IMG/VR virus record: IMGVR_UViG_3300031952_000001 | Location: 1 to 64,000 of that record | DNA: 64,000 nucleotides | Source: a virus | Direction: 5' to 3' (one strand) | Shown here: positions 7,957-27,518 of the stretch, piece after piece | How the letters are laid out: every line of letters begins with the position of its first letter | Numbering within the stretch: position 1 is the stretch's first letter | Made by a program: the position numbers and the translations under genes | Notes under the pieces: model-generated | Seen by the model: only the letters and a program-made list of their open reading frames with translations | Told to the model about the DNA's origin: nothing | Databases searched by the model: none

Positions 7957-10461
7957 ATGGCAATCAGCATTTCGAAATATGTCGATCCAGGCGTGTACAT
8001 CGCGGAAGTGATTGTCCCTGGTGCGATTTCCGTCACTTCTGAGCGCACGCTGGGGATCATCGCCATCGCTCCGCGCACCCGTCGCAGTGTGGATGAGCCG
8101 GTCACCCGCGGGAAGATCTACGCGGAGGTGCTGACTCTGTCCGTGGGGTCTCCCCATGTGGGGACCTTGGCGAACACCTCGAACAGGTCCAGGAACAACG
8201 CGCAGCTGTACATGAACGGGAACCCCTTGGGGCTCGCGGACTGGCAGTTCCTGGCTGCGCGCCTGGTGGGCACCGAGTGGGCTGGCGCGACGGTGGACGT
8301 CTCCCTGGCGACCGGTACCCCCTACTTCACCCTGTCCCTCGACGGGAAGCGCGCCGTCACTCTGAACTTCGATGCCCTGGTGCCGCTGGTTGGCGGTGTT
8401 CAGGCGGTCGCGACTCCGACGGACATCTGCAACGCCATCAACTACGCCCTGGCGAATGCGCTCGGGCCGTTCTTCTCGATCTACGGCCTGACCTACGCCG
8501 CGGTGGCGACCCACGCGGTGGGCCTGGTGAATGAGATCATCACCCTCACGTCGCCCTCGACGGAGCCCACTTCCGATCTGAAGGTGTTCATCTCCCCGAA
8601 CGCGGCGCTCGACGGTGCGTCCACGATCTCGACCGCTGCGTGGACTCCCGCGGTGGGCGCGGGTGTTCAAGCCACCACACGTCTCCAGGTGTTCGACGCG
8701 GCGTACACATCGTCCGCGGTCTACACCTTGGACTACGTGTCGGTCGACGTGCTGGTCGATGCGCTGGACAATGCCGGCACCTCTACCCCGCTGTCGGACA
8801 TCAACTACCTCGGTTCGTACCCGGGCGGTGTGGACTACACGAAGAACACGGACTACGAAGTCGGCATCGCCAACGATGTCGACTGGGACGTGACTACCTG
8901 GGTGCAGGCGACGGCGACCACGTTGGATTTCGTCGCCTTCCCGCCGACCATCGTGGCGGCCACCAACGACAAGCTCCTGATGTCCATCAACAACCGCACC
9001 CAGGTCCTCGTGACCTTGACCCCGGGCGCTCCGACGACTCCGGCGATTGTGGCCGCGGACATCAACGCCGCGCTGGCCTCGATTGCGAGTGCGTACGGCC
9101 CGGAGTTCTCGCACATGGCGGTCGTCGTGGGCAACACGGTGCGGATCCGGTGCCCGGACGACTTCGAGAACTACCTCCCGGAGAAGGGTGTCGCCAGCTC
9201 GATTCAGTTCCGGGCGACCGCTGCGAACGCCTTCACGACGCTGTTCGGCGCGATCACGCTGCCCTACACGGCCCAGGGCACCGGGAAGCGACCGGCGTTC
9301 GGGACGAACTACTACTGCACGTACGACTACGTCCGCCCGGCCACGGACTACACGACGGGACACCGTGTGTACGATCCGGATCAGCTCTACCAGTACACGA
9401 CCAAGCTGACGATGCAGAACTACCTGGTCAACAAGCTCTGCGTGGCGGGGGAGATCGCGTTCGAGAACGGCATCTCCTCGATGTACCTCTTCCAGATCAA
9501 CGACTCGGTGGCCCCCGGCACCCCGACGCAGCTGGAGATCAACACCGCGCTCGACGCCGCGAAGGAGTATTCGACCGTCACGGACGTCGTCACCATCGAC
9601 ACGAGCCTGGACACCGCGGTGTACCAGATGCTCCACGTCGCGGATCAGTCGTCGATGCTCGAAAAGCACTACCGCCGCGGCTGGTTCAGCATGGCACGGA
9701 ACACGGACGTCGGTGATCCCGACACGCCGGACACGTTCGTCTACCGGTCGACCAAGACCTTGCAGCCGGGCAACACCTCCCCGGGCCGCGGCCGGCTGTT
9801 CCTGATCGCTCCGGGCAACGCGACCAGAACCATCAAGCTCGACACGAGCCAAGAGATCGATCTCAACGTGGACGGCACGTACATCGCCGTCGCCGTCGCG
9901 TCGGTGTTCACCGCCCTCCCGAGCCCCTCGTCGGCGCTCATCGGGCGCTTCATCACGGGCTTCAAGACCGAGGGCTTCGGGACGTACCTCCGCGGCGAGC
10001 GCCACACGCTGGCGGACAAGGGCGTTCTCGTGGTCACGCTCGACGCCGGCCGCCTGGTCATGCTCGACCCGATCTCCACCGAGGCCGGCGGTGCCAAGGT
10101 GGTGCAGTTCGAGGAGCCGGCCTCCAGCGCGCAGAAGGACGCGGTCACGAAGACCGTCGACACCCTGCTCGCGGGCAACGTCATCGGTGTGGTTCCGGAC
10201 GATCTGAGCGACTTCATTTCGGACTGCAAGAAGTGGATCTTGCTCGGCATCACGGCGAACATCACCAATGGCTCGATTGCGGCCTACCGCGACCAGTCGG
10301 GGCTGCCGCGTGACATCGACGCTACGACGGACATCGTGGTGTACCAGTCTACGACTGATCCCAGGACCTTCTACTTCAAGTATTGGTACAACCTGAAGTA
10401 CCCGGCCAAGAGGTTCTTCGGTGAATACTCGGTCGACAACCCGTTCTTCAGCCCCGCCTAG
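7957..10461 (+). CDS. Contractile tail sheath protein
   Basis: The product is 834 residues, longer than the roughly 400-660 usual for sheath proteins. The N-terminus KYVDPGVYIAEV matches the conserved PGVY start of sheath proteins, and the C-terminal third (residues about 640-830) contains the conserved domain with an IVVYQS...-type strand, which interlocks subunits by donated strands. The central 400 residues are a beta-rich, Thr/Ala-rich insertion probably exposed on the tail surface. The protein polymerises around the tail tube and contracts on infection. Two tail-tube genes follow directly, as expected. ATG 7957 is preceded by GGGAGG (7941-7946). Confidence 0.9.
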   Translation: MAISISKYVDPGVYIAEVIVPGAISVTSERTLGIIAIAPRTRRSVDEPVTRGKIYAEVLTLSVGSPHVGTLANTSNRSRNNAQLYMNGNPLGLADWQFLAARLVGTEWAGATVDVSLATGTPYFTLSLDGKRAVTLNFDALVPLVGGVQAVATPTDICNAINYALANALGPFFSIYGLTYAAVATHAVGLVNEIITLTSPSTEPTSDLKVFISPNAALDGASTISTAAWTPAVGAGVQATTRLQVFDAAYTSSAVYTLDYVSVDVLVDALDNAGTSTPLSDINYLGSYPGGVDYTKNTDYEVGIANDVDWDVTTWVQATATTLDFVAFPPTIVAATNDKLLMSINNRTQVLVTLTPGAPTTPAIVAADINAALASIASAYGPEFSHMAVVVGNTVRIRCPDDFENYLPEKGVASSIQFRATAANAFTTLFGAITLPYTAQGTGKRPAFGTNYYCTYDYVRPATDYTTGHRVYDPDQLYQYTTKLTMQNYLVNKLCVAGEIAFENGISSMYLFQINDSVAPGTPTQLEINTALDAAKEYSTVTDVVTIDTSLDTAVYQMLHVADQSSMLEKHYRRGWFSMARNTDVGDPDTPDTFVYRSTKTLQPGNTSPGRGRLFLIAPGNATRTIKLDTSQEIDLNVDGTYIAVAVASVFTALPSPSSALIGRFITGFKTEGFGTYLRGERHTLADKGVLVVTLDAGRLVMLDPISTEAGGAKVVQFEEPASSAQKDAVTKTVDTLLAGNVIGVVPDDLSDFISDCKKWILLGITANITNGSIAAYRDQSGLPRDIDATTDIVVYQSTTDPRTFYFKYWYNLKYPAKRFFGEYSVDNPFFSPA

Positions 10462-10486: not shown

Positions 10487-10933
10487 ATGCAAGTCCCGTA
10501 CACAGGAATTCGTACTAGCCATGCGATCTCCATCCGCGTGGGCAGCACGACCATCGGCCAGATCCAGACCTGGGCTCCGACCCAGTCGAGGACCATCACG
10601 CCGGCCTACGAGCTGCGCTCCGAGACTTCCGGAGAGGTGACTGAGAACATTCCCGGGAACGTCACGGGCCTGACGATCCAGGTGAGCCGCTACGACTTGT
10701 TCACCGCCAAGATGGAGCAGGTCTGGGGCACCTCGAAGGCGCTGTGGATGCTTTCGAATCAGAATATCCCCCTCACGGTCGAGGAGAAGTGGCGCAATCC
10801 GAACATGATCGTCGAGAAGTTCGTCTACGAGGGCTGCTGGTTCTCTCAGCTCGGGCGCAACATGCAGGCGCAGGGTGACAGGATCGTCCTCGTCAACGCC
10901 ACCCTCGCCTACGTCAAGTGCCGCCCGTACTAG
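10487..10933 (+). CDS. Tail tube protein, paralogue 1
   Basis: The product is 148 residues, the usual size of a phage tail-tube subunit, and its gene lies directly after the sheath with a strong ribosome binding site (GGGGAGGAGG). The sequence (IRTSHAISIRVGSTTIGQIQ at the N-terminus, AQGDRIVLVNATLAYVK at the C-terminus) aligns along its whole length with the next gene. Tube subunits stack as hexameric rings inside the sheath and carry the DNA. I infer this shorter copy forms the main tube because it lacks the insertion of its neighbour. Confidence 0.8.
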   Translation: MQVPYTGIRTSHAISIRVGSTTIGQIQTWAPTQSRTITPAYELRSETSGEVTENIPGNVTGLTIQVSRYDLFTAKMEQVWGTSKALWMLSNQNIPLTVEEKWRNPNMIVEKFVYEGCWFSQLGRNMQAQGDRIVLVNATLAYVKCRPY

Positions 10934-10939
10934 AAACCC

Positions 10940-11545
10940 ATGCCTGTACCGCGTACTGATCTCCGAACAAGTCACGCCATAACGCTTCGTGCAGCGGATA
11001 AGACGATAGGGCGGATCCAGAGCTGGGGTCCTTCGCAGGGCCGGGACGTCAAGCTCAAGTTCGAGATCAATGCGGTCGGTACCGGAGCCCCTATAGAGGC
11101 CGTCCCCGGCATTGCGACTTCCCAGGTTATTCAGGTGGCTCGCTACGATCTCTACGTTCAGAAAATGGAGGAGATCTGGGGTATGCCGAGGCCTCTGTGG
11201 GCCCTGACAGACCAGCACAACCCCATCGACATCGAAGAGAAGTGGATCAAGTTTGGAACGAAAGAAAAACCACTGATTCCGGGCATGGAGACTGTCACAA
11301 CTTCCTCCTTGCTGGATAAGGTCGGGTCGACGAAGTTCGGAAAAGCACTGGGGATCGGAACCGCGAACGAGCTGGGAGGCATAGACATCGGACCTGCCGG
11401 CGCTGGTCAGGAAATAACGGTTGAGAAGAACTGGTATTCGGGATGCTGGTTCACGAGCATGGGCCGTGTGATGCAGGCACAAGGAGACCGTTTAGTGCTC
11501 GTAAACGCCACTTTGGTGTATGTGAAGATGCGACGTTTGATGTAG
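10940..11545 (+). CDS. Tail tube protein, paralogue 2 with insertion
   Basis: The product is 201 residues. It matches the preceding tube protein at both ends (LRTSHAITLRAADKTIGRIQ; AQGDRLVLVNATLVYVK) and in the middle (QVARYDLYVQKMEEIWG), but carries about 50 extra residues near positions 110-160 (KEKPLIPGMETVTTSS... to ...GIDIGPAGAGQEI). The extra segment is Gly/Ser/Thr-rich and would form a loop or small domain on each subunit. It could be an alternative ring type, a tube tip or tube-baseplate adapter. The gene starts six bases after the first copy's stop and has only a weak ribosome binding site, suggesting lower expression. Confidence 0.75.
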   Translation: MPVPRTDLRTSHAITLRAADKTIGRIQSWGPSQGRDVKLKFEINAVGTGAPIEAVPGIATSQVIQVARYDLYVQKMEEIWGMPRPLWALTDQHNPIDIEEKWIKFGTKEKPLIPGMETVTTSSLLDKVGSTKFGKALGIGTANELGGIDIGPAGAGQEITVEKNWYSGCWFTSMGRVMQAQGDRLVLVNATLVYVKMRRLM

Positions 11546-11600: not shown

Positions 11601-12131
11601 ATGTCGAACGAAACGACCAACCCCAAGAGAATATTGGACGATCTCGCGAGGGAACTCGACGGAGACTGCCTGGAGGACACCTTCACCTGGAAGGGCCGGA
11701 AGTTCAAGATCAAGCTCTTGAACGAGGAGGAGTCGAACTGGAGGAACGGGTTCGTGAACATGGGTAGTGGGTTCTCGACCATCACGTCGTGGCGGCTGCC
11801 TACCCTCGCCATCGGAATCCGGGAGATCGACGACGTCCCTGTGTTCGAGTTCTTCCGCTCCGAGTGGGAGGCGACCGAGAAGGGCCGGGAGGTCGTGCGT
11901 CTCATGGAAGGTCGCGGCACCTTCAGCATGAAGTATTTCTCTGCTGAGCACCTCATGCAGTACCTGGGGCGGCGTCCTCCCGAGGCTCTGGAGGAGATGT
12001 GGAAATACTACAAGATGCTGGAGGACCGTCGTGAGGAGGCCCAAGACAACGTAAAAAAATCCTCAGGGGAGGGTTCGGAGAAGGCCGAGAGGCCGAGTGG
12101 GACCGAATCTTCCCCGTCTGGAGAAGAGTAG
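11601..12131 (+). CDS. Tail assembly chaperone, short form
   Basis: The product is 176 residues: a folded N-terminal domain (to about residue 150) and a low-complexity tail (KKSSGEGSEKAERPSGTESS). Position between tube and tape-measure genes, size, and a -1 slippery site near the 3' end identify it as the equivalent of lambda gpG, which coats the tape measure while the tube assembles. The ATG at 11601 follows AGAAGGGAG. The low-complexity end after codon 153 is what is read when ribosomes do not shift. Confidence 0.75.
   Translation: MSNETTNPKRILDDLARELDGDCLEDTFTWKGRKFKIKLLNEEESNWRNGFVNMGSGFSTITSWRLPTLAIGIREIDDVPVFEFFRSEWEATEKGREVVRLMEGRGTFSMKYFSAEHLMQYLGRRPPEALEEMWKYYKMLEDRREEAQDNVKKSSGEGSEKAERPSGTESSPSGEE
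12053..12059 (+). promoter_or_regulatory. -1 ribosomal frameshift slippery heptamer
   Basis: Seven A's read in the zero frame as (gt)A AAA AAA, a canonical -1 slippery sequence. After slipping, the next codon starts at 12059 and the -1 frame stays open to 12880. No stop codon interrupts between the heptamer and the downstream reading frame. Confidence 0.8.
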
Positions 12132-12880
12132 TCTCCCGGTTCAAGATCAAAGCGAAGATCTTGACTCGGCGGATGATGTGTCTTGGCGACCCCCGGCTGA
12201 AGGGGATGAACGACACCCAGTGGGTGTTCGAGCTGGAGGCCATGAATCTTCAGGACAAGGAGAAGTATGACGACCTGCGCATGCTCTCCGACATCACGAA
12301 GAAGCAGATCATCTCCATGCTGGGGCTGAATCTGCTTCCCGTGGAGGACGAGAAGACTGGCCTGCTTCGTCAGCCCGAAGAGCACGAGTGCCTGCCCCTC
12401 GCCATCATGATCGGCAGGGACGACATCCTGGCGGCCATCAAAGAGCGCCAGGAGCAGTACGGCACTCAGGAAGAGGTTCGCGCACAGCTTGAGTCTTCTG
12501 ATGCGCTCATGGGATCCGGAAAGGCGGAAGATACGGGTGTTGTGGAGATGAGTCCTGACGAGCTGGAGGAGTTCATGAAGGATGAGGGGGACGTCGAGTT
12601 CGAGAACGCCCCTGAAGATCTCCGCAAGGCCATGAAGTGGGGCGGGCGCGATACCCAGATGCTCTTGGAGAACCTCGTGCTGTCCAAAGACGATCTTGGA
12701 GATGATCCTCTGGAGGATCTACCGGCAAGGACTTTGGGGAGGGCCCGTTCGGACATCAAGGATTCCCTGAAGACACGTCCAGTAGTCAGTGGCATCGAAG
12801 TCGAGGAGGTAGAGTTAAGGTCTACGAAGGGCCTTGAGGTAAAATCAGATCGACCTGTGGTGACGTTGGACATCGAGTGA
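12059..12880 (+). CDS. Tail assembly chaperone, frameshift extension (long form)
   Basis: This frame is exactly -1 to the upstream chaperone gene and has no convincing start of its own: the first ATG pair is deep inside the open frame and only a TTG without ribosome binding site lies at 12161. Reading through the seven A's yields a fusion of about 153 + 273 = 426 residues, equivalent to lambda gpGT, which recruits tube subunits to the tape measure. The extension begins with a basic helical segment (ILRGGFGEGREAEWDRIFP) and ends in an acidic region. It stops four bases before the first tape-measure gene. Confidence 0.75.
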   Translation: MLRGGFGEGREAEWDRIFPVWRRVVSRFKIKAKILTRRMMCLGDPRLKGMNDTQWVFELEAMNLQDKEKYDDLRMLSDITKKQIISMLGLNLLPVEDEKTGLLRQPEEHECLPLAIMIGRDDILAAIKERQEQYGTQEEVRAQLESSDALMGSGKAEDTGVVEMSPDELEEFMKDEGDVEFENAPEDLRKAMKWGGRDTQMLLENLVLSKDDLGDDPLEDLPARTLGRARSDIKDSLKTRPVVSGIEVEEVELRSTKGLEVKSDRPVVTLDIE

Positions 12881-12884
12881 GGGA

Positions 12885-15218
12885 ATGGCCGAGGTTCAGA
12901 CATACCTGCTCAAGTGGGACCTGGACAAGTTCCGTGACCAGATCGCGGACTCGCAGGCCACGTACACGAAATTCGGGTCCGCCCTGCGTGACCTTGTCGG
13001 AGCGGTTTCAGGAGACCTGACCGCCCTTCAGCAGCGTGCCTCGGCGGTCTCGTCTACCCTGGTAGGCCTCACTCCCCAGATCGAGCGGTCGGTTCAGACG
13101 TTGAGGGAGGGGTCTTCTTCGGCGAACCAACTGCTGGAGTCCATCGCGAGAAGCGGCTCCAGGATCGCAGCGGACATGTCCAGGGCGACCGCTGGGGCCC
13201 CTGGAGCGGGTAAGGGTCCCCAAGGAAGCCCTCCCGGTGTCGACAAGGCAGAAGCCCAGGTAGAGGGCGTAAAAGCGTCTGCCATCATCGCCTTGGACAT
13301 GGCGAATGAAGCCTTGTCCAAGGTGAGTGAGGCGCTGAAGATCATCGAGCGCAACAAGAAGGCCTTGAAAGCGGAGATGACTGCGGCCGAGAAGCTCATG
13401 AAGGATGAGCTGAAGAACGCTGCCGCCAAGGTCAAGGAGGTGGTCAGTCACATGCCCGGAGGGGTTCTGTCGAGCGGTCTCCTCGGCGGCCTTCTGGGGG
13501 CCATGATCCTGGGGTACACCGAGACGGACCGCGTCAAGGCCCTCTCCGGAGAGGTCCTGAACGTCTTTGAGGCTACGGGGGAGTCTCTGTCGTCCAAGGC
13601 TGGGATCAAGGCTCGGGAGTTCTTTACGGGTCCGAATGGTTTCGTAGAGAAGGCGCAGTGGTTCTATGGGATCTCGAAGGAAGAGTCCATGGGAGTCCTG
13701 AAGACCATGGTGGACGCCGGCTACAAGGGCAAGCAGATCAGTGCGTCGTTCAACAAGTCCCTCGGAGAGGTCGGTTCGAACGTTGCAGTTTTGTCCATGG
13801 CGGTGGACAAGCACTTCAACCAGGACACGGGGACCTCCATGAACAACATCATCCAGATCACGACGTCTCTGGGAGATTCTCTGAAGGACGCGACAGACAA
13901 GTACACCAGGCTCGCGTTTGCCGGCCAGCGAAGCGCCATGGGGGTCAGCAAGTTTACGGACTCCGTGATCTCTGGAGCGTCGGCGATGCAGCAGTACGGT
14001 GTCGACGTGGAAGATGTCGCGAGCATGATGAGCACTGTTCAGAAGCACTACCAGGACATGGGACTGAGCCCTCAGTACGCAGGAGACCGGGCTACGCAAG
14101 CCGTCTCAGGCCTGATGACCAGCATGGCGAACATGAACCCTGCGGTGAAGGCTCTCGTCATGCAGCGGATCAACCCCGGTCTCTCCGGTCTGGACGCTCG
14201 GCAGGCGTTCGAGGACGGGTTCAAGAGGGTGATTTCCGGAGAGGACAAGAACTTTGCGTCGAAGGCCGCTATGGCGTTGTACCAGTACGCGGCTGAAGGA
14301 CGTGACCGGAGCGGTGCTATAAAAATCTTGGAGGGTGTTGCCGGCATGCAGAACCAGCCGGCCGCTACTTTGGTGGACACGAAGGGTGAGCTTGTCAAGG
14401 TGAATGCCCTCACGGAGTTGAATCAAAAGGAGACGGCCAACCTGAAGAATTCTCTCATAACCGAAGGTGAGAGGCTCTCTGCTCTCGCTAAGATGCAGCG
14501 GGAGCTGTACAAGGCGATTGCTTCTATAGGCAAGGGGCTTTTGAAGATCCTCACCGGCCTCGTTGGGGTCCTTGTGATGGGCTTTAAGTCTCTTCCTGTG
14601 CTCATCATGGCCCTTATACCAGGCTCTCAGGTTGGGTGGGCTGAGCTAAATGAGCTATCCCGAAAATTCGATGCTCTGAGCACGAGCATAAGCTCCGGTG
14701 CTCAGGACATGAAGACCGGTTTTGGAATGCTTCCTGACATTTTCGGTAAGGAATTTTCAGATGATCTGAAGCCCTTGCTCGATGTGCTCAAGTACGACGT
14801 GCCGAAGTACGCCAGTGGGGGTGTAGAAATGCCCTCCCCGTTTGAATCTATGGAGGAGAACGCTAGAAGAGTTAAGGCCATAAAAGAGGAAATGATAAGT
14901 GATATTACAGAACTTGTTGCTGACGAAGATACACGTAACATGTTGATCGGTGAAATCAAGTCCGGTGTTGTTACGTCGCGAGGTCTTGCGTCCTACATTA
15001 AGAGTCGAGAAGACGCGAAGACTCGGGAACGGTTTGAAGGGAAAAAAGAAGCAGTAACCCCCAAACTCAAAATGAAAGACGTTGGCCTCAAGTATAAACC
15101 CCTCAACACGGCAGAGATACGGGCTGCCGCTAAGAAGGGAGCAATACTTACAGCAGGGCAGCAGAGGTCTTTGACGTTGAAGGTGGACAGGGACATCCTC
15201 AAGCACATGGGGCAGTAA
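12885..15218 (+). CDS. Tape-measure-like protein 1 of 3
   Basis: The product is 777 residues, mostly helical, located directly after the chaperone pair as expected of a tape measure protein. Helical N-terminus (1-190), a hydrophobic Gly-rich turn at 193-211 (GGVLSSGLLGGLLGAMILGY) followed by TETDR, long helical body, and two further hydrophobic segments around 545-580 (LLKILTGLVGVLVMGFKSLP). The core aligns with the next two proteins at the GYTE/D-xxR box and at a YAGDRATQAVSGLM box near 400. Tape measures set tail length and exit ahead of the DNA. The last 150 codons are distinctly more AT-rich. ATG 12885 follows GAGGG. Confidence 0.75.
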   Translation: MAEVQTYLLKWDLDKFRDQIADSQATYTKFGSALRDLVGAVSGDLTALQQRASAVSSTLVGLTPQIERSVQTLREGSSSANQLLESIARSGSRIAADMSRATAGAPGAGKGPQGSPPGVDKAEAQVEGVKASAIIALDMANEALSKVSEALKIIERNKKALKAEMTAAEKLMKDELKNAAAKVKEVVSHMPGGVLSSGLLGGLLGAMILGYTETDRVKALSGEVLNVFEATGESLSSKAGIKAREFFTGPNGFVEKAQWFYGISKEESMGVLKTMVDAGYKGKQISASFNKSLGEVGSNVAVLSMAVDKHFNQDTGTSMNNIIQITTSLGDSLKDATDKYTRLAFAGQRSAMGVSKFTDSVISGASAMQQYGVDVEDVASMMSTVQKHYQDMGLSPQYAGDRATQAVSGLMTSMANMNPAVKALVMQRINPGLSGLDARQAFEDGFKRVISGEDKNFASKAAMALYQYAAEGRDRSGAIKILEGVAGMQNQPAATLVDTKGELVKVNALTELNQKETANLKNSLITEGERLSALAKMQRELYKAIASIGKGLLKILTGLVGVLVMGFKSLPVLIMALIPGSQVGWAELNELSRKFDALSTSISSGAQDMKTGFGMLPDIFGKEFSDDLKPLLDVLKYDVPKYASGGVEMPSPFESMEENARRVKAIKEEMISDITELVADEDTRNMLIGEIKSGVVTSRGLASYIKSREDAKTRERFEGKKEAVTPKLKMKDVGLKYKPLNTAEIRAAAKKGAILTAGQQRSLTLKVDRDILKHMGQ

Positions 15219-15224
15219 TTTTAG

Positions 15225-17531
15225 ATGGTGGAACAGTTCTACATAGATCTTGATTTGACCGGGCTGGAGAGCCAGCTCAGTGATGTGCAGCATTCGTACA
15301 CCGAGCTGGGAACCGCCATCCAGCAGATCACGTCCGACTACAAGAAGTCCCTTTCTGACATGGCGGGTCTTGCGACTCAGACCGTTGCCCCGATGGACAT
15401 CCCTCCTACACTGGAACCCGGCCTGAACCAGCTGATGGCTCAAATGAACGAGATGCAGAGGAACGTCCCTGCTGTGCAGGCTGCGTTGAAACAGTTGGAG
15501 GGTCTGCATGAGGCTCGTAGAGCCGCAGCAGCTTCTGCGGGCCCCCGTGTTGCGGGGAATCAGCCCCCTCCAGGTCTTCCGGATCCGGAGCGTATTCGTG
15601 CCGTCGCTGAGCAGGGGCAGGAGCTGGCTTTGAAGACCCTGGCGGCGGTGGACAAGGCGTTGGACGAGAACGAGAGCTGGAAGTCCCGCGTACAGAAGCT
15701 CATCGAGTCGGAGATGAAGAAGGTTCGTGCGAAGATCAGTGAAGTTTTGAGTAACCTTCCAGGACAGGTTTCTACAGGATTTTTTGGGGCCCTCATGGGC
15801 TCTATGGTGCTGGGGTACACGGAAAAAAATCGCCGTCGAAAAGAGATGGGGGAGATGGCGAACATGTTCGAGGGTGGTGTCAACGCCCTGTTTTCGAAAG
15901 GCTCCCGGGATGTTGTTCGAAAGTTCTCGCAGTGGGGGGAGAACGCGCAGTGGCAGTGGGGTGTTGGCCGAAAAGAACTTCAAGGTGGGATAAAGCTGAT
16001 GGTGGACAACGGTCTCACCCAGGCGCAGATGTCCAAGAGTTTTGGTAGGGGTCTGGGCGATGTCGGTGAGAACGTGGTCACACTGACTATAGGTCTTGCA
16101 AAGCATTACAACTTCTCTACTTCTGATGCTATGGAAGACGTTGTGAGCCTGGTTCGGGATTACGGGATGGGGCTCTCGAACGCGGCAGACCTCATGGTGA
16201 AGATGGCTGCCGCGGGTCAGGGAAGTTCTATAGGTGTGAAGAACTTTTCTCGAATCGTATTGGCTTCTGCGGACCCACTGTCGCGCATGGGCGTCAAAGC
16301 TGAAGATGTCGGTGTTTTCGTGGATCGGTTGTTGAAGGGCTACAAGTCTGCGGGGTTGGACGCTCGGTATTCTGGACGACAAGTCGAGGGTGTGGCGGTC
16401 GACATGATGACAGCGTTCAGTAACATGGACAATGCGATGAAGCTCGCCATCGCCCGGGACATGTATAAGGACCCGGAAGGGGACGCGATGGGGCTCTTGA
16501 TTCGTTTTGAAGATGGCGTTACTCGATTGGCGCGGAAGGAAAGCTCTGACTTTTTGGACAAGCTGATTACTTCGTTCTTCCACGTCGTGGTCGACCGGTC
16601 GACCAACGAGAGGTCCCCTGCCATCCAGGTGATCATGTCCTCTCTGAATGTGGAGAACACCACGGCTTCCAGGATGTTCGACTTCAGGGCTATTCTGGAG
16701 AAAGGTGGTGAGCTGAACTCGATGGACAAGAAGTCCAAGAGGGAATTCCGTAATGCGTTTGTTTACGAGTCTGAACAAGTTTCCGATCTGTTCAAGACGA
16801 AGAGGGAGATGATCCTTGGCGTCGGTAAGATGGGCGAGGGCATTCTTGCCCTCATTGTCGACATGGTCGGTATGGCAATGATCGGAATGCAGGGTATGGC
16901 AGCTTCTGCAAGCGCTCCAAAGGGTCAGCAGGCTGCTGTGAACATGCTCATCTACTTTAAGCAGTTGGAGATCTATCGCAACATGGGTCGCGATTTGGCG
17001 CTCATCAAGGAGGGCGCAGGTCTGGCGGTGGGCGCTCTTCCAAAAGAGTTTGCGGACACCTTTGCTCCTGTAGTGGAAGCCTTTAAATCGGATGTTTTTG
17101 AAGGATCCGGACTTTACAACCAGGCATACAATCAAGTATTGGCGCACCCTATAGATAATTTGAAGAGTGTTATGGGGTTTGCTGAGAGTATGCAGCCTTG
17201 GAATCTTATTAAGAGTAAAGAGTCTTCCACTCCTGGTACGCCGAGTGCTCTGGATATAGTAACTGGGGATTTTCTAGGAAATGGTCCCGGTAGCTCTGAG
17301 CTGGTGGCGGCGTACCTAAGGAGGCAGGCTGCTGCAAAACTCCAGGTAAAGACGCCCCCGGAGGTGAAGAAGGTGAAAGACAAGCCGCGGGTAGACCAGG
17401 CGGATGAATCCGGAACACCGAAAAAGAATCCTCAGGAACCTGAAGTTTCCGGGTTGGGCCTGGCGGAGAGACTCATGCAAGCGCGCCAAGCTATCGCGGC
17501 TGAGGACTCAAACAGGATGAGCACCCAGTGA
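15225..17531 (+). CDS. Tape-measure-like protein 2 of 3
   Basis: The product is 768 residues, close to the length of copy 1. It has the same plan: helical N-terminus, a hydrophobic turn with LGYTEKNR at about 196-203, a matching box YSGRQVEGVAVDMM near 385, and a hydrophobic pair around 540-560 (GEGILALIVDMVGMAMIGMQ). The tail (660-768) is Lys/Pro/Glu-rich and differs from the other copies. The gene starts six bases after copy 1 stops; its own stop overlaps the GTG start of copy 3. Sequence similarity to copies 1 and 3 is moderate and restricted to the core, so the duplication is old. Confidence 0.75.
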   Translation: MVEQFYIDLDLTGLESQLSDVQHSYTELGTAIQQITSDYKKSLSDMAGLATQTVAPMDIPPTLEPGLNQLMAQMNEMQRNVPAVQAALKQLEGLHEARRAAAASAGPRVAGNQPPPGLPDPERIRAVAEQGQELALKTLAAVDKALDENESWKSRVQKLIESEMKKVRAKISEVLSNLPGQVSTGFFGALMGSMVLGYTEKNRRRKEMGEMANMFEGGVNALFSKGSRDVVRKFSQWGENAQWQWGVGRKELQGGIKLMVDNGLTQAQMSKSFGRGLGDVGENVVTLTIGLAKHYNFSTSDAMEDVVSLVRDYGMGLSNAADLMVKMAAAGQGSSIGVKNFSRIVLASADPLSRMGVKAEDVGVFVDRLLKGYKSAGLDARYSGRQVEGVAVDMMTAFSNMDNAMKLAIARDMYKDPEGDAMGLLIRFEDGVTRLARKESSDFLDKLITSFFHVVVDRSTNERSPAIQVIMSSLNVENTTASRMFDFRAILEKGGELNSMDKKSKREFRNAFVYESEQVSDLFKTKREMILGVGKMGEGILALIVDMVGMAMIGMQGMAASASAPKGQQAAVNMLIYFKQLEIYRNMGRDLALIKEGAGLAVGALPKEFADTFAPVVEAFKSDVFEGSGLYNQAYNQVLAHPIDNLKSVMGFAESMQPWNLIKSKESSTPGTPSALDIVTGDFLGNGPGSSELVAAYLRRQAAAKLQVKTPPEVKKVKDKPRVDQADESGTPKKNPQEPEVSGLGLAERLMQARQAIAAEDSNRMSTQ

Positions 17532-20365
17532 CAGGCATTATCGACATCAAGCAGCTGGACGAAGCGCGCTTCAGGTTCACTGAGCTGGGTGACGCCATCA
17601 GCGGTATGTCCCAGGCGAACGTCGAGTCGATGGACTCGTTGATAGCGAGCCTTAAAGAGGGCTTCAAGTCCGTTATTGAGGAGGTGTCTCACGATCCGCG
17701 ACTGATCGGAGGGGGTAGAGTGGCCGGCGTCAGCGAGCAGTACGTTTCCTCCATCGCAGGGAAGTTCAGCGGCATGTCGCAAGGGGTGACGCACTCCTTT
17801 GAGAGCTTGGAGCGCACCTTGACGGGTGTTGAGAAGAGCTTTGGTACGATGGCGGATGACGCTCGTGCCAAGATCTCGGGGGTCGGTGGCGAGGCGGATC
17901 ATGATGGCGAGGGTGCTGACACCGAAGGTGAGGCGAAGGATCCGAAGCAAAAAGGCACGGACAAGAAGAAGAAGGGCATCGCCGGCATCGTTCAAGCTGA
18001 GGGTCGGAATCTCAAGGGCCGTGTTCAAGGCATGCTGTCGCGCATGAAAATACCAAACAAGGTCGGCGCTGTCATGGCCGGTGGGCTCGGCATCCTCACC
18101 TACGGGTACATGGACCGGAATCGCGTCCGTGCCGAGGCGGGAGAGGTCAAGAACATCCTCATCGCGGCGTACGACGATGGTGTGAAGGGTTCCCTGGCTG
18201 CGGGTACTGCGAGCCTTTCGAGAATGCAGGAGGCCTTTCAGAAGTACAAGGGGATCCAGCGCGAGGAGATCCAGAACACCGCGCAGGCTCTTGTGGATGG
18301 TGGCTTCAGTGTGGACCAGATGCTTCGGGAGGTGAGTGGGAACATTCGCGATGTGCAGTCCAGTGCGTTGTCGACGACCCTCGCCTTGGACAAGATGTTT
18401 GAGCTGCCGGGCGGCGAGAGCGCGAAGCGCATGGTCTCCATGATGGCGCTCTACGGCAAGAACTCGAACGATGCTCGGGAGTCCCTCACGAGGATGTACC
18501 TGGTAGGTCGGGACTCCGGAATCGGAGCGATGCAGTTCGTGAAGAACGTCGAGGACGCCAGCTCTGAGCTGTCGGTGATGGGCTTCAACATCGACCATGT
18601 CGTCGACATCTACGCCTCAGTCACGGAGTCGTTCGAGAAGATGGGCGTCCCCAAGCAGTTTGCCGGTCGTCAGGCGGCGCTGGGCATGCAGCAGATCTCC
18701 AGTGGGATCGCCAAGATGTCTGACAACTGGATGGTTGTTCTCGGTGAGCGGATGGGTCACGGCCGCGGATTGGAAGCCCGCCAGGGGATGATGGATGCCT
18801 TCACTCGGGTCTTGAAAGATCGCGACGTCAACGAGCTTCAGAAGATCATCTCTACGGTTTGGGACATGGCCTTGAAGGCAACCGGTGGGAACGAGGAGGC
18901 TGCTCGGTACTACGTTGAGAAGCAGGTGGGTTGGGGCTACGAAGGTGCTCGTGTGGTTCAGAACATTGGACGCATGGCTAAGGAAGGCCGTATGGTCGAG
19001 TCGGCGAAGGCCACCGCGGACAGCTTTGCGATCTTGAAGGAGTCCTTCGAAACGGAGAAGGAGAAGGCCAGCCAATTTGAACTCATGATGAACACCTGGA
19101 TGAAGGGCTTGGCTTTTATGGGGCAGGCGATTCTTGGCATGGTTGTGCAGTTCATTGCATGGATGATTGCCTACTTCAAGGCCCTTCCTCAGTTTTTTTC
19201 GAATTTGAAGAACTTGGATTTTGAGGCCAACACTCGTCTTGCGGCGGATTTAAATCACACTTTCTGGAACATGGGTGCACATCAGGATCAACTCAAATCT
19301 GCTGCATCACAGATGGCTAACACAGCAGGGGCGATGTTTACGGATGTTTTGGGTAATTCTATGCGCTCCCTGGACACCGCTTGGAACTTCGATCCTACGG
19401 GGAAGAGACCCCCAGCCCCTGCTTCGGCTCCTGGAGGGGGTGGTGCAGGAGGTGGGGGTGGGGGTGGTGCCCCCCGCATCATCACGATTCCAGTGCCCGT
19501 GGCGGGGGCGGGAGGCAGCCAATCCATCCCAGCTACACCACCTCCGGCGTCCGTTGTGGGGGGTGTTCCTACGGACCAGTGGGCGGGGGGTGGAGTTACC
19601 TTGAGTGTCGAGGGTCCTGACCCCTTAGGGAACCTCACGGTCATGCTCGGAGGAAATTGTCCCCGGTGCGGTTACAGCTTTGCAGAAGGGGGAGCAGCAG
19701 CTCCAGAAACCGAATCTCCCGGTGGGGATCCATGGGGTCACTACGAGAGTGGCGCTGCGGGTGCTACTGCCGGTCCCGCCACTGCCGCTGCTGCTAGTGT
19801 CGGCCCTGGCTCGGCCCCAGGCCCTGGAGCCAGTGCTGGTGGTGGAGCGGGTGCTCCTGCGGCCATGTCAGGCTACCAGGGCGCTCCAGGGACATTCTCT
19901 AGCATGGGTTTGGCCCCTGAAGGAAAGTTCTCAGGTGACGACGTAGAGGCTCTGGCGAGGATGATGCAATCTGAAACCGGCGGCCTGCGCGCAGACAGGA
20001 AGAATGAGCAGCTCGGTACTGCGTGGACGGCGTTGAATAGGCGGGGTGCACGGGAGGGTGGGGGGAGTCTTCAGAAAACCATAACTAAGGACAAGGGTTG
20101 GGGCAAGAGTGATGCTGGCGTGCTTCCCGGGGGGCGGCGGCAGTTTGCTTCCGGGGCTAAACCTGGTCAGCCTATGATAGACTTTGCACGATCCATTTTG
20201 AGAGGTGACGAAGGAACTGCGGACCCAACCGGAGGTGCCACGTCATTCGTACATCGTCCAATTGGAGCGAAGTATGGTCATAAAAATGCTCCAGGGGAGA
20301 AGGAATTAGTTTCGTTTGCAATTCCAAAGGATCCTAAGCACCGGGAAGTCACATTCTTCAAATAG
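17528..20365 (+). CDS. Tape-measure-like protein 3 of 3 with C-terminal cell-wall hydrolase-like domain
   Basis: The product is 945 residues starting with GTG at 17528, overlapping the stop of copy 2 (GTGA). It contains the same core: hydrophobic turn with YGYMDRNR at 192-199, and FAGRQAALGMQQI near 380. An acidic/Lys insertion (125-150) and a Gly/Pro-rich linker (about 625-790, with a CPRCG pair) lead to a final domain from about residue 797: ALARMMQSETGG, GTAWTALNRR, QFASG and GATSFVHR resemble the spacing of SleB/CwlJ-type cell-wall hydrolases, with the Glu of the first box as candidate catalytic residue. Such domains in tape measures open the peptidoglycan during DNA entry. DNA after about 20160 becomes AT-richer. 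Confidence 0.75.
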   Translation: MTGIIDIKQLDEARFRFTELGDAISGMSQANVESMDSLIASLKEGFKSVIEEVSHDPRLIGGGRVAGVSEQYVSSIAGKFSGMSQGVTHSFESLERTLTGVEKSFGTMADDARAKISGVGGEADHDGEGADTEGEAKDPKQKGTDKKKKGIAGIVQAEGRNLKGRVQGMLSRMKIPNKVGAVMAGGLGILTYGYMDRNRVRAEAGEVKNILIAAYDDGVKGSLAAGTASLSRMQEAFQKYKGIQREEIQNTAQALVDGGFSVDQMLREVSGNIRDVQSSALSTTLALDKMFELPGGESAKRMVSMMALYGKNSNDARESLTRMYLVGRDSGIGAMQFVKNVEDASSELSVMGFNIDHVVDIYASVTESFEKMGVPKQFAGRQAALGMQQISSGIAKMSDNWMVVLGERMGHGRGLEARQGMMDAFTRVLKDRDVNELQKIISTVWDMALKATGGNEEAARYYVEKQVGWGYEGARVVQNIGRMAKEGRMVESAKATADSFAILKESFETEKEKASQFELMMNTWMKGLAFMGQAILGMVVQFIAWMIAYFKALPQFFSNLKNLDFEANTRLAADLNHTFWNMGAHQDQLKSAASQMANTAGAMFTDVLGNSMRSLDTAWNFDPTGKRPPAPASAPGGGGAGGGGGGGAPRIITIPVPVAGAGGSQSIPATPPPASVVGGVPTDQWAGGGVTLSVEGPDPLGNLTVMLGGNCPRCGYSFAEGGAAAPETESPGGDPWGHYESGAAGATAGPATAAAASVGPGSAPGPGASAGGGAGAPAAMSGYQGAPGTFSSMGLAPEGKFSGDDVEALARMMQSETGGLRADRKNEQLGTAWTALNRRGAREGGGSLQKTITKDKGWGKSDAGVLPGGRRQFASGAKPGQPMIDFARSILRGDEGTADPTGGATSFVHRPIGAKYGHKNAPGEKELVSFAIPKDPKHREVTFFK

Positions 20366-20431: not shown

Positions 20432-21187
20432 ATGCCTACATTTTTGGAAAATATGAAGCAGGCTTTCGGTCCCAGCAACGGGATGCCGGTGCCTACAGTA
20501 GAGCGGATTCTCGACCGCATTCTGAACCCGTACGAAGATGTTGCGTACCGAGTGCCGTTCATCTTCACTTCGGATCAGAGGATCAAGGACGCGATCCCTC
20601 CAGTGCGGATGAAGATGAATCCGGAGACCGTGACGTTCTCGCAGAACAAGAGGATCACGCGGCGTGATACGCAGTCCGGTGCGGTCTTCTTCCACTGGAC
20701 GAACGCCAAGGGGCAGAACAACGATGTCATCAACATCAGCTTCGCCGGCTCCACGGGGAACATCAACCTGAGGACCGGGGCCCAGCGCAACAGCAAGATT
20801 GCGTCCGACCAGATAAAGAGGTTCCGAGACTGGATGAAGTCCGCTACGAAGCAGGAAGGTCTCGACGTGGAGACGCTGGCGGGTGCGTCTAAGCTCGTGA
20901 ATTTCTGGAATCTCTACAACCTGACCGTGGAGCCGGTGATCGATCCATTCAAAGGCTACCAGAACAAGTTCTACTTCATGTACTCCAGCCCGATCCTTGG
21001 AAACGCCTTGATTCAGTTCATCGGCCATTTCGACAAGGTCTTGGAGTTCACGGACGACGCGGCCAACCCGTTCAACAAGAACTACTCCTTCAGCTTCGTG
21101 GCGACGGAGACGATTCCGTCCATGGATGCCATCTTCAGGTACATCTCTCAGGCCTTGGGTACTCAGTTCTTCAATGAGTTGGAGTAG
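20432..21187 (+). CDS. Probable baseplate hub or tube-initiator protein
   Basis: The product is 251 residues. A 66-base AT-rich gap precedes it, with AAAAAGG eight bases before ATG 20432. The sequence has beta-type segments and phrases such as FYFMYSSPILGNALIQFIGH; no membrane segment. In contractile phages the gene between tape measure and hub usually encodes the tube-initiator or a LysM-type hub protein, and the position and size match, though no LysM motif is evident. Function is by gene order. Confidence 0.6.
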   Translation: MPTFLENMKQAFGPSNGMPVPTVERILDRILNPYEDVAYRVPFIFTSDQRIKDAIPPVRMKMNPETVTFSQNKRITRRDTQSGAVFFHWTNAKGQNNDVINISFAGSTGNINLRTGAQRNSKIASDQIKRFRDWMKSATKQEGLDVETLAGASKLVNFWNLYNLTVEPVIDPFKGYQNKFYFMYSSPILGNALIQFIGHFDKVLEFTDDAANPFNKNYSFSFVATETIPSMDAIFRYISQALGTQFFNELE

Positions 21188-21189
21188 CT

Positions 21190-23661
21190 ATGGAACTCGG
21201 AAGCACACTGGAGAGGCAGAAGTACGGCATCACGTCGCAGAACGGGATCTACCGTGCAGCGTTTCCCGCTTTCAGGGTCTTCATCTACGGTGAAGAGGTT
21301 TCGGGTGACGTCGTCGAGGTGCGTGTGAATCAGTCCGGTGGGAGCATGGATCGCTCCCCAGGCACGTTCTCTGTCTCTCTGGCGAACATAGGGGACAAGT
21401 ACATTCTCGACCACAACGATATGGTGGCCCTGTCGGAGTCTCGGGACAAGCTCATTAACACACTCGGAGAGAACGCGGACGCCTATGAATACTTGATGAG
21501 TTCCCTCAGGGACTCCGCAGGCGAGGATGAAAACGTCATTTCTGAGATGGGTCGCATGCTGTCCAGCTCGGGTCGTTTCAGTGATCTGGCGGAATACTAT
21601 TCGTCTTATTACTCAGAGCTTTTGAAGACGGGATATTATCAAGGTGCCTGGGACGAGAATAGGGTTCCGGATCACCTCAAGTGGAGTGTCGTTCAGAAGA
21701 AGGCACCTCTCGTGGTGCCTGGCTGGCAGGCGTTCTACGAGGAGTTCAAGAAGGACGGAACCTACTTGACCAAGTTCTTCCTGAACAAGGAGGGGTTCAT
21801 TTACCCCTTCGCAGAGGGTGATTGCATCTTCCACCCCAACGATCCCGTTCGGATCGCCTTCAGGGATCCTTTCGATCCCTCGATCTGGTACTGGTCTTTC
21901 ACTGGGTTCGTAGATGGTTTCGTAGAAGACCGTGGAGCGAACCAGGAGTCCATAGTAACAATCACGGGTACGGACGTCACGAAGATGGCCCGGTACTCTA
22001 TGTTCCAGACTTCCACGGACGCAGTGCGGGATGCAGCCATCACGAAGTTGTTCCCCATCTTCGAGTCGACCACCACGGAGGTAAAGTGGACTGCGTATTC
22101 TGAGCTGTTTGCACACTTCACTATCTTCGAGATGCTGGAGCTGCTGTTCTTTGGACTTGAGTCCTACAAGGAGTCTGTCACAGAGTTCGTGCAGAGAGCC
22201 TGCACCCAGATGGACCCCTCTGAGGTGGACCAGTTCCTCATCCACTCTGCGACCAAGCAGAGCAGCGAGGAGCTGAAGAGCATGGCCTATAACGAGAAGG
22301 TCGCTCTCATGAAGACCTATATGGGCGGGGACAAGACTACGCGGTTCGAGGGTGCGCGCTTCCCGCCATTACAGACGCCGCAAGGTACGAAGTTCCAACG
22401 GAAGGACGAGAAGTACGGAACCTATGCGTTCTTCATTGGGAAGGCGGATAACTACGACAAGTCCATGGGTGTGGAAGTTCCTATCACGGAGTTGAGAAGT
22501 CTTAACGATTTCTTGAACCATCGAGTTACTGAAAATGATCCTCTGAGCATGGGTGCCAACTCCAAGGCGAAGACCTATTGGGTTCCATCCATAACCCTGA
22601 ACGACGTCATTACCCATATAGGCAGAAATATAGAAGACTACCCCGTCGGTTCTGGGCGCGTGGTGTACGTTGCACCATCCGGGCTGGGCCTTGGCGTCTC
22701 TTCCGGTGTCATGGACGAGGTCATGAACGCCGCGGGTGGTGGTCTGCATTCGGAGTTTAAGGACCGGTTGACCTACCTGTACGATCTGGCAGAGCAGATT
22801 CAGTTTTGTTTCTATGCGACCCCTCGTGGGGACGTTGTGTTCGAGATGCCGTTCTATGATTTCGATCCGTGGGTTTGGGATAGCGCGGGTACCTTCTTGT
22901 CGAACGACACCCTGGACACCGCCGCTTCCGCTAGGAGGAAGACCCTTGAAGATCTGCGCCTGAACGTAGAGGCGTGGTCCAAGGGCAGTATCAAGTATTC
23001 CGAGGCCGACATCTACAAGATGATGCAGCTTTCCTCCGACTTGCAGTTGGTCCAGGAAGGATTTTCGCTGACGGAGTCCGAGACCTCCGCGACGAACTAT
23101 TCCGACTACTATACGATCAACAAGCACGAGACCTATGGTTACAGCAATGCTCTAAATGATAGTGGTTTGAAAACATTCGCTCGCTGCGCCCCCTACGTCA
23201 TGGAGCGTATGGGTGAAGGTTTTAACCCCATAGACATGAGGGAGTATCAGTTTGTGTACGTTCCGTCTCTTGCGCCCCTTCTTGGGTTCAGGGCAGCTTC
23301 AGACAAGAGTCCTTGGACACAGGTAACTTCCGCTGAGGGTGCCCAGATTTTCGCTTCCCTGGATCTCAGGAAGTGCAATGCAGAAGCCCGGACTTTGAAC
23401 ATTCAGGTTCTTCCGCATTTCGGCTTCATGGTGAACAGGACTTTGTACTGGCGTCAGCGCAACTACGTTGCCAATATCGTCAGCTGCTCTCATAGTATCG
23501 CCGTGAACAGCTCCTGTGAAACTCAAGTCAACGTGAACTACGCGCGTGCGTGGATGGGTGATTACGCTGAGGGTAGCAAGAGCCCCAAGATGGAAGTTTT
23601 TCGCCATTTCGGTGGAGATCTTCCGTTCAGCTATGCAGCATTGTTGGACGCGAACAAGTAA
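21190..23661 (+). CDS. Large baseplate hub protein candidate
   Basis: The product is 823 residues, starting two bases after the previous stop. The N-terminal part (FPAFRVFIYGEEVSGDVVEV...) and the segment around 190-280 with alternating strands (PVRIAFRDPFDPSIWYWSF TGFV) resemble phage hub proteins of the gp27/gpD group, which form the trimeric ring joining spike and tube. The size is about twice that of gp27, so extra domains (about 330-560) are inserted. The following gene is the spike, supporting hub identity. Assignment is from order and strand pattern, not from a firm motif. Confidence 0.6.
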   Translation: MELGSTLERQKYGITSQNGIYRAAFPAFRVFIYGEEVSGDVVEVRVNQSGGSMDRSPGTFSVSLANIGDKYILDHNDMVALSESRDKLINTLGENADAYEYLMSSLRDSAGEDENVISEMGRMLSSSGRFSDLAEYYSSYYSELLKTGYYQGAWDENRVPDHLKWSVVQKKAPLVVPGWQAFYEEFKKDGTYLTKFFLNKEGFIYPFAEGDCIFHPNDPVRIAFRDPFDPSIWYWSFTGFVDGFVEDRGANQESIVTITGTDVTKMARYSMFQTSTDAVRDAAITKLFPIFESTTTEVKWTAYSELFAHFTIFEMLELLFFGLESYKESVTEFVQRACTQMDPSEVDQFLIHSATKQSSEELKSMAYNEKVALMKTYMGGDKTTRFEGARFPPLQTPQGTKFQRKDEKYGTYAFFIGKADNYDKSMGVEVPITELRSLNDFLNHRVTENDPLSMGANSKAKTYWVPSITLNDVITHIGRNIEDYPVGSGRVVYVAPSGLGLGVSSGVMDEVMNAAGGGLHSEFKDRLTYLYDLAEQIQFCFYATPRGDVVFEMPFYDFDPWVWDSAGTFLSNDTLDTAASARRKTLEDLRLNVEAWSKGSIKYSEADIYKMMQLSSDLQLVQEGFSLTESETSATNYSDYYTINKHETYGYSNALNDSGLKTFARCAPYVMERMGEGFNPIDMREYQFVYVPSLAPLLGFRAASDKSPWTQVTSAEGAQIFASLDLRKCNAEARTLNIQVLPHFGFMVNRTLYWRQRNYVANIVSCSHSIAVNSSCETQVNVNYARAWMGDYAEGSKSPKMEVFRHFGGDLPFSYAALLDANK

Positions 23662-25147: not shown

Positions 25148-25648
25148 ATGGCTCTGACCCCTGGTGGAACCGTTGTGAAGTGCATCCTGGAGTGGCTGTA
25201 CGCCCAGGTTGCACCTCTCTTGGAGGCGCTGAAGGCGATCCTTCTCGCGATCATCCAGTTCATCGACCTCCAGGTTCAGTTCCTGAAAGCCCTGCTGTCC
25301 CAGCTCGACATCCTGAAGGTCATCGAGGAGGCTGCCTGGGCCATCGTTCAGGCCGTGATCGATAAGGTCCGGGACACCCTGACAGCGATACCTGAGGGGC
25401 CCCTCAAAGAGCTGTGCCCTGAGTTCTACCAGATGTTTACGGACCCTGCGTTGCAGATTTTCGATACCTTGGTCTCAGGGCTATCCATCTACAGGGAACG
25501 CTACAAAAATGTGTTATCCTTCATGGACGAAGTTGAGGTCCTCTTTCAGTATTGGGAGGGGATCAAGAGCGAGTTGGTCGCACTGGTAGAGTCCATCGAC
25601 GACGCGATATATTGGGCCAAGATGGAAGCAGCATCGGCGGTGCCGTAA
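25148..25648 (+). CDS. Hypothetical baseplate-region helical protein
   Basis: The product is 166 residues, nearly all helix with two amphipathic or hydrophobic stretches (AILLAIIQFIDLQVQFLKAL). The gene lies seven bases after the spike and two bases before the gp25-like gene, so it is almost certainly part of the baseplate operon. No PAAR tip motif is present. Function unknown; an assembly factor or wedge component is possible. Confidence 0.55.
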   Translation: MALTPGGTVVKCILEWLYAQVAPLLEALKAILLAIIQFIDLQVQFLKALLSQLDILKVIEEAAWAIVQAVIDKVRDTLTAIPEGPLKELCPEFYQMFTDPALQIFDTLVSGLSIYRERYKNVLSFMDEVEVLFQYWEGIKSELVALVESIDDAIYWAKMEAASAVP

Positions 25649-26087: not shown

Positions 26088-27518
26088 ATGGTTATCCAGA
26101 GAAAAACAGTAGCTCAGTTCGAGGATCAGCTTTCCAACGGGGTCGCGTCTCGTGACGAGACCATCGATACCTACATCGGCTCGATCCGAGATCTTTTCAT
26201 CACACCGCCCGCTGAGGTCATGAAGAGCGTCCACGACAACATCGTGTATCTCAGCCAGCTGACCAGCATGATCAACGCGGAGCGGTTCAATCCCGAGGAT
26301 CTCGACGCCATCGTCTACAACGAGAACGTCATCCGGTGGACCGGATCAGGGTCGTATTCGATTGTGACCTTCTCGCGCCTGCTGCCTCCGACGACAGACA
26401 TCCCGATCCCGGTAAACTTCCCTCTGTCGACCTCTCAGGATCCTCGGACGGGAACCGTTGTGAACTTCAGGACCATCGAGTCACAGGTCATGTATGGGCC
26501 ACTGACGGTTCCGTCTTCGTCGTACTACAACGCGACGACGGAGCGCTACGAGATCGATGTCGCGGTGGCGAGCGTCGTCGTAGGCACGGAGGCTTCCGTC
26601 GGGGCCTACACCATCACGCAGTTCCGAAGAGCGTTTCCGGACTTCGAGTACGTCACGAACAAGTCGGCGACGACGAGTGGCCGTGGGGTCGAGACGAACA
26701 CCGACTTGGCGATCAGGTACCAGACCCGGATCACCGGCAACCAAGAGGCGACTCCGTCGGGGCTCAAGCTGTTCTCTCTGGACAACTTCAGCAACATCTC
26801 GGATGCCTACGTCGTCTACGGAACCGACGTCAACTTGGAGCGCCACACCTCCGATGCCGGCGCGGTGGACGAGTGGGTCAAGACATCTGCACCACTGACG
26901 CACTCCTACGACACGTACTACAGAGCCTTGCGTGAGCTGATCCCCTTGCCCAAGCAGCCGCTCGTTTCGATCATCTCGGTTTCCAGCGGGGCCACCTACT
27001 ACACCGAGGGTACGGACTTCGAGAAGTCCACGGGTGACGGGATCTACGCCTACAGCGACCGGGGGCACGACGGCATTCGATTCCTCATCGGAGGGGCGGC
27101 CCCCGCGCCCAACGCTCCGTTGAAGATCGTGTACTCCTACAACTCGATGATCAACATCCTCACGGCGTACTACAAGCAGCAGGAGTATTACGTCATGGGC
27201 TCGGACATGCTCTTCCGCTGGGCTCAGCAGAAGAACATTGTCATCGAGGCGGAGCTGAAGGTTGGCTCCGGCAACCCGGACACCGTACTGTCGTTGGTCA
27301 GAGCCAAGATTCTGAGCTACATCAACAACTTGAAGTTGGGTGCTGACGTCGAGGAGTTCGACATTGACTCCCAGGTAGCTCTCGTCGGAGGTGTAGACAA
27401 CTGGGTGTATGTCACTCTGGCTGTGAAGGGCTCTTCTGGCGTGGGTGACATTCCGATAGGTCCGATGGAGTACGCCTACTTGGATGAGGCGGATCTCATC
27501 ATCAGCCTCGTTTCGTAG
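26088..27518 (+). CDS. Baseplate wedge protein J / gp6-like
   Basis: The product is 476 residues. Helical N-terminus (FITPPAEVMKSVHDNIVYLS), central beta region with the family-like segment VGTEASVGAYTI, then NTDLAIRYQTRITG and a C-terminal part with LVRAKILSYINNLKLGADV and ISLV end. These features and the position after gp25 fit baseplate J / T4 gp6 proteins, which form the iris ring of the baseplate. The gene is separated by three bases from its upstream neighbour and eleven from the downstream one. Confidence 0.8.
   Translation: MVIQRKTVAQFEDQLSNGVASRDETIDTYIGSIRDLFITPPAEVMKSVHDNIVYLSQLTSMINAERFNPEDLDAIVYNENVIRWTGSGSYSIVTFSRLLPPTTDIPIPVNFPLSTSQDPRTGTVVNFRTIESQVMYGPLTVPSSSYYNATTERYEIDVAVASVVVGTEASVGAYTITQFRRAFPDFEYVTNKSATTSGRGVETNTDLAIRYQTRITGNQEATPSGLKLFSLDNFSNISDAYVVYGTDVNLERHTSDAGAVDEWVKTSAPLTHSYDTYYRALRELIPLPKQPLVSIISVSSGATYYTEGTDFEKSTGDGIYAYSDRGHDGIRFLIGGAAPAPNAPLKIVYSYNSMINILTAYYKQQEYYVMGSDMLFRWAQQKNIVIEAELKVGSGNPDTVLSLVRAKILSYINNLKLGADVEEFDIDSQVALVGGVDNWVYVTLAVKGSSGVGDIPIGPMEYAYLDEADLIISLVS

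Follow-up and report, generated by a model that had tools for sequence, protein, structure and literature searches.

Three tandem paralogous tape-measure genes in a large uncultured phage suggest a heteromeric tape measure with one wall-hydrolase arm

The lumen of the tail tube in tailed phages holds a bundle of tape-measure protein (TMP) chains, usually three identical ones, which stand next to one another and whose C-termini sit at the hub. As a rule, the TMP is regarded as the product of a single gene that forms a homomer; T5 and 80alpha also possess a homotrimeric TMP. In mycobacteriophage TM4 and in phiCbK (CHAP domain), the TMP carries a wall hydrolase. Heteromerisation of paralogs is known from other assemblies, for example the fungal V-ATPase ring, in which duplication and the loss of complementary interfaces produced an obligate heteromer. 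TMP trimers have been reported for JBD30 (PMC11445458), Pa193 (PMC11042391), diffocin (PMC10996793), and phage 812 (PMC12886913); in Anabaena phage A-1(L), the TMP forms a mostly six-fold bundle with three C-termini resolved (PMC10966104). The open-access literature searched yielded no earlier description of a phage with two or three paralogous TMPs.

The window analysed here, which covers the initial 64 kb of a virus record 212 kb long, carries three consecutive TMP genes. In tail-operon position, in helical fold as judged by structure comparison, and in hydrophobic helices, as well as in their presumed lumenal bundle and ejection, the encoded proteins resemble the homotrimeric TMPs of JBD30 (gp46), T5, 80alpha, Pa193 (gp41), phage 812, and diffocin; those systems, however, rely on one TMP gene and identical chains, whereas two or three diverged genes are present here. 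As in TM4 and phiCbK, there is a TMP fused to a domain that acts, here by prediction, on peptidoglycan. There, the hydrolase belongs to the only TMP, so every chain would carry it, whereas here it is found on the last paralog alone and its enzyme family varies by lineage. The single published phage found to carry this tail module, virus Rctr197k (KX853510), shares the tail synteny and a detectable TMP homology, but it has one TMP only, 669 aa long, whose annotation states no more than a similarity to a hypothetical protein and in which no hydrolase was detected. We consider it fairly probable that the three gene products assemble, side by side, into one heteromeric tape measure with one hydrolase arm. 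As proposed here, a homomer would have become a heteromer by duplication, as in the fungal V-ATPase ring, although the latter is not a tape measure.

The three tape-measure genes

The first-pass annotation of the window had listed three consecutive open reading frames of 777, 768, and 945 aa, which were borne out on the plus strand at 12885..15218 (copy 1, A1), 15225..17531 (copy 2, A2), and 17528..20365 (copy 3, A3). They are adjacent, tightly coupled tandem genes: copy 2 starts 6 bases past the stop of copy 1, and in the sequence GTGA, the GTG start of copy 3 and the stop of copy 2 overlap. BLASTP confirmed that they are true paralogs, with 28% identity over 647 columns between copies 1 and 2 (E 4e-73), 25% over 468 columns between copies 1 and 3 (E 3e-33), and 22% over 404 columns between copies 2 and 3 (E 2e-21). 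The pairwise homology, which the annotation had proposed, extends far past the low-complexity helices; chance or low-complexity similarity is ruled out by these E values together with the tree described below. The paralogy spans a core of ~430 residues and lies mostly in a compact all-helical domain. The helical cores are located, all on the plus strand, at 13458..14792 in copy 1 (residues 192-636, including a hydrophobic helix), 15759..17087 in copy 2 (~residues 179-621), and 18050..19387 in copy 3 (~residues 175-620). Both sequence boxes noted earlier were recovered in each copy. The GY(T/M)(E/D)xxR box reads GYTETDR at residue 210 of copy 1 (13512-13532), GYTEKNR at residue 197 of copy 2 (15813-15833), and GYMDRNR at residue 193 of copy 3 (18104-18124), and no further GY[TM][ED]xxR occurs in the six frames of the 64 kb. 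The (Y/F)(A/S)G(D/R) box follows at a distance of 185-188 residues, as YAGD at residue 398 (14076-14087), YSGR at 382 (16368-16379), and FAGR at 378 (18659-18670), respectively. An AlphaFold2 model of copy 1, built from an alignment of 31 sequences, consists of long N-terminal helices at residues 13-188 (low confidence), a hydrophobic helix at 199-229, a compact helical domain at 238-528 with a pLDDT of ~91, and long helices up to residue 636, followed by a mostly disordered C-terminus.

The three paralogs are TMPs, as had been suggested at first reading; this identification is based on synteny, weak PHROG and Pfam TMP matches of family members, and the fold. In all relatives examined, the TMP genes follow the tail tube and chaperone genes and precede the initiator and hub genes, with a variant order in one clade (clade B, below). 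Among 32 family members, TMP_3 was matched by six (best 9e-4), PhageMin_Tail by three (best 4.9e-4), and the tape-measure families phrog_167 and phrog_1272 by three each, PHROG TMP matches reaching down to 4.2e-6. For the window's own three copies, no match to the curated Pfam and PHROG TMP families reached the cut-off. The copy 1 fold gave 92 matches at E <= 0.001 in BFVD (Foldseek), and the best-ranked named matches are annotated as tape measure or as minor tail proteins; global TM-scores of the fold matches to known TMPs are low (0.16-0.35). A direct profile match of the family to P2 gpT or the TP901-1 TMP was discarded, the hhalign results being too weak. A sequence-only search of the PDB returned generic helical proteins alone, and a PDB fold search of the core returned nothing useful. 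The phage is assigned to the contractile-tailed phages (myoviruses) by a predicted sheath gene (7957..10461, plus strand, 834 aa), a homolog (1e-144) of an ORF in the relative L028; the L028 ORF scores 1.4e-5 against PF04984 (Phage_sheath_1), which does not reach the curated cut-off.

Each copy further carries an N-terminal motif with the consensus (Y/F)T(D/E)(L/F)GxA(I/V), namely YTKFGSAL in copy 1 (12963..12986), YTELGTAI in copy 2 (15297..15320), and FTELGDAI in copy 3 (17576..17599), all on the plus strand. In proteins of three-copy phages, the T is kept in 22/24 and the G in 23/24; in single-copy TMPs, the motif was looked for and is absent. Since it is common to the copies, the chains probably terminate at a common position. 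The N-terminal part and core together measure 626 +/- 9 aa in three-copy proteins. At 0.15 nm per residue, the three proteins would predict a tail of 117-142 nm if lying side by side or ~370 nm if end to end, in line with the arithmetic of the first-pass annotation. Stacked end to end, the three proteins would act as one long ruler, with summed lengths yielding a long tail of ~370 nm. The shared N-terminal motif, however, looks as if each copy held the same end, and no stacked TMPs were found in the literature searched; we regard such stacking as very unlikely. The side-by-side arrangement is favoured over it by the lengths up to the core end (602-642 aa across copies), the common N-terminal motif, the halt at three copies, and the existence of a two-copy stage. 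Two observations on length count against the heteromeric bundle. Lengths up to the core end do not covary within phages, as co-assembly might predict (mean range 19.1 aa versus 18.3 aa in shuffled sets, P = 0.78; the near-constant lengths give this comparison low power), and the first (x) and second (y) proteins of two-copy phages differ by 30-55 residues up to the core end.

Copy number and duplication history

Relatives were found among viral contigs with two proteins of the window as bait: the tail tube initiator-like protein (20432..21187, plus strand, 251 aa; PF23980 0.028, phrog_1011 0.0058), whose gene neighbours the TMP genes in every relative and served as the marker gene, and the Baseplate J-like protein (26088..27518, plus strand; PF04865 3.2e-5, above cut-off). 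A search of the viral contigs with copy 1 alone gave no match. The relatives are metagenomic and represent very large uncultured phages. Within one syntenic tail module, the TMP is encoded by a single gene in 10 lineages (Rctr197k, L023, L024, L028-L032, L128, and a contig binned with an actinomycete MAG), by two genes in 6 (clade C: G011-G016, with G017 and G019 as near-duplicates), and by three genes in 9. The last comprise clade A (the window, L014, L015, L016, L019, and L020) and clade B (G001/L010, L022, and G018). Low counts are lower bounds, given that L030 and L031 were counted at the locus only and that some of the records are no more than short fragments. The two-copy clade C rules out that only one or three copies occur, and no record with four TMPs was found among the lineages counted. 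The contig binned with the actinomycete MAG (L152, JANXME010000184.1) is probably a phage contig and gives a weak hint at the host.

The halt at three agrees with the reported TMP trimers (JBD30, Pa193, diffocin, and phage 812). Three separate chains are not a requirement, however, since the two-copy state is stable, and the mostly six-fold bundle of A-1(L) means that three is not the sole possible chain number. The bundle could accordingly be a hexamer built, for instance, from two of each chain, as A-1(L) illustrates with its largely six-fold TMP of which three C-termini alone are resolved (PMC10966104). Trimers are nevertheless commoner in the literature (PMC11445458, PMC11042391, PMC10996793, PMC12886913) and the copies stop at three, which makes a hexamer improbable in our judgement.

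We compared a tree of 48 TMP cores with a separate tree of five other tail genes, in which A, C, A+C, B, and the single-copy group are each recovered at 100. In the TMP tree, the second gene of clade C groups with copy 3 of clade A (Cy+A3; support 100/99), and the first gene of clade C with copies 1 and 2 (Cx+A1+A2; 100/100), A1 and A2 being sisters (92/84). The copies of clade B (B1-B3) cluster together (96/90), with B2 and B3 as sisters (99/95). One triplication with positional orthologs was rejected by the AU test, both for a clade of all first copies (p-AU 4e-4) and for a clade of all second copies (p-AU 3e-5); since these positional clades are rejected, A and B gained their third gene separately. 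The trees indicate stepwise, partly parallel duplication. A first duplication common to A+C and B is possible (p-AU 0.169 in the test of this point), and C may have lost a copy (p 0.32 with A1 and Cx constrained together). Gene order agrees with the tree: sister copies lie next to each other, and clade B (L010, L022, and G018) has the initiator gene between TMP copies 1 and 2. The pairing of copies 1 and 2 in clade A was recovered in 4/4 separate alignment parts. Gene conversion could mimic parts of the TMP tree. The comparison thus reaches beyond the first-pass annotation: the arrangement is common to many phages, two-copy intermediates exist, and the third gene arose by separate duplications in clades A and B.

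The last copy and its predicted wall hydrolase

In 15/15 multi-copy lineages, the last copy is lengthened, by 203-372 residues past the core. The ends in which an enzyme was detected belong to four unrelated wall-hydrolase families: Hydrolase_2 in G015 and G011 (above the Pfam cut-off, 1.7e-7 and 2.2e-6), Peptidase_M15 in G012 and G016 (1.3e-7 and 3.2e-7), glucosaminidase in G001 and G018 (3.8e-9 and 4.3e-10), and an SLT-like end in L022 (0.0097, below cut-off). The ends of G013 and G014 are SleB-like by eye only, and those of the clade A relatives are assigned to Hydrolase_2 by homology. In a scan of the 32 members, hydrolase families were confined to last copies among the 25 families listed. 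The window's copy 3 ends in a predicted peptidoglycan-cleaving hydrolase, a SleB-like (Hydrolase_2) domain at 19931..20362 (plus strand). This part of copy 3 gave no direct match to Pfam or NCBIfam; it shows 37% identity across 142 aa (5e-16) with the C-terminal end of the last copy of G015 (G015_y), a protein that matches PF07486 at 1.7e-7, above the Pfam cut-off. The top two PDB fold matches of the copy 3 end are both SleB (probability 0.80, E 0.58, and 0.60). The earlier observation of a hydrolase-like end on copy 3 only is borne out by this identity to the Hydrolase_2 end of G015_y. The division of labour then surmised, in which the last copy alone bears the hydrolase, is strongly supported, because all 15 last copies are extended and four unrelated enzyme families occur on them.

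Ahead of the hydrolase, copy 3 contains the motif NCPRCG (19655..19672, plus strand), corresponding to the CPxC found in the last copy of 12/12 clade A and C lineages; no CxxC is present in the other TMP copies. With two cysteines only, it is a possible disulfide or metal site. Tandem duplication is a frequent accident, and the copies might be redundant, serving as interchangeable spares in assorted homotrimers. Spares would not, however, retain a hydrolase and a CPxC on the last copy, and each copy group forms its own clade across all members; such redundancy is hardly credible.

In multi-copy phages, C-terminal tails range widely, from 107 to 372 aa, and the three copies of the window have diverged to 22-28% identity. 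Both features would suit a different division of roles, in which one copy is the ruler and the others are TMP-derived ejection or pore proteins, carried in the tail or head and acting in the envelope. Such duplicates would keep the TMP fold, cease measuring, and need not be present in equal amounts; TMPs are indeed thought to form pores after ejection (PMC11445458). We think this unlikely in view of the common N-terminal motif, the similar core-end lengths, the tight tandem coupling, and the copy number that ends at three.

A proposed heteromeric bundle and its setting

Our best reading is that the usual TMP trimer has turned heteromeric, passing from X3 through X2Y to XX'Y, where the stoichiometries are inferred. 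Duplication of a single TMP gene would have produced a simple chain, X, and a second chain, Y, which gained a long C-terminus with a peptidoglycan hydrolase, and the two-copy bundle would be X2Y. In the window's clade, X would then have duplicated again into copies 1 and 2, giving each chain its own gene and a bundle of X-X'-Y at 1:1:1. The chains would run parallel, with approximately equal lengths up to the core end, and jointly set a tail of ~95-120 nm. During infection, the bundle would be ejected through the hub, and the single Y chain would bring one wall-cutting domain. We infer that all three proteins are present in the virion, packed side by side in equal numbers, and ejected. A trimer with separately encoded chains, one of them bearing an enzyme, explains the copy limit, the N-terminal motif, the narrow length range, and the tight coupling. 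More tentatively, and short of calling it probable, we postulate an obligate heterotrimer that arose by repeated duplication, in parallel in two clades, stopped at three due to the three-chain lumenal bundle, and has a single exchangeable wall-cutting arm per tail. If this is true, gene copy number would be a genetic read-out of TMP stoichiometry.

In this family, a single length-setting protein has become two or three different proteins, which suggests that a bundle of identical chains became one of three different chains. Occurring naturally with one, two, or three TMP genes, the syntenic module would allow direct testing of chain number, work sharing, and the origin of tail-tip asymmetry. 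A dedicated hydrolase chain, whose enzyme family differs by lineage, offers a natural example of modular wall-piercing. That the window's three TMPs reach no curated cut-off may be part of the reason why such proteins escape annotation in some large phages.

Upstream of the TMP genes, two tandem tail-tube-like proteins of 148 and 201 aa are encoded at 10487..11545 (plus strand), designated as tube by position and matching phrog_985 (virion structural protein) at 2.8e-6 and 0.021. Relatives possess one to three such paralogs, apparently independent of TMP copy number; three occur in the single-TMP phages L024, L028, L029, and L128. Two candidate tail assembly chaperones follow on the plus strand, gpG-like at 11601..12131, for which relatives have homologs in syntenic position ahead of the TMP, and gpT-like at 12161..12880. 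Both are proposed by position and neither matched a family; they are two separate ORFs, with the stop of the first at 12131 and the start of the next at 12161. Downstream, a candidate baseplate hub protein of 823 aa (21190..23661, plus strand) is proposed by position and conserved in relatives. It measures 812-919 aa in every multi-copy phage versus 686-782 aa in single-copy phages; a larger hub has perhaps co-evolved with the mixed TMP, and phylogenetically this may be one event. A helical protein of 166 aa (25148-25648) shows weak matches to tape-measure PHROGs (phrog_4200 at 3.8e-4), possibly by helix composition only. Further downstream, an ORF of 336 aa (32620-33630) matches PF12898 (Stc1 domain) at 9.9e-7, which is unexpected beside phage tail genes.
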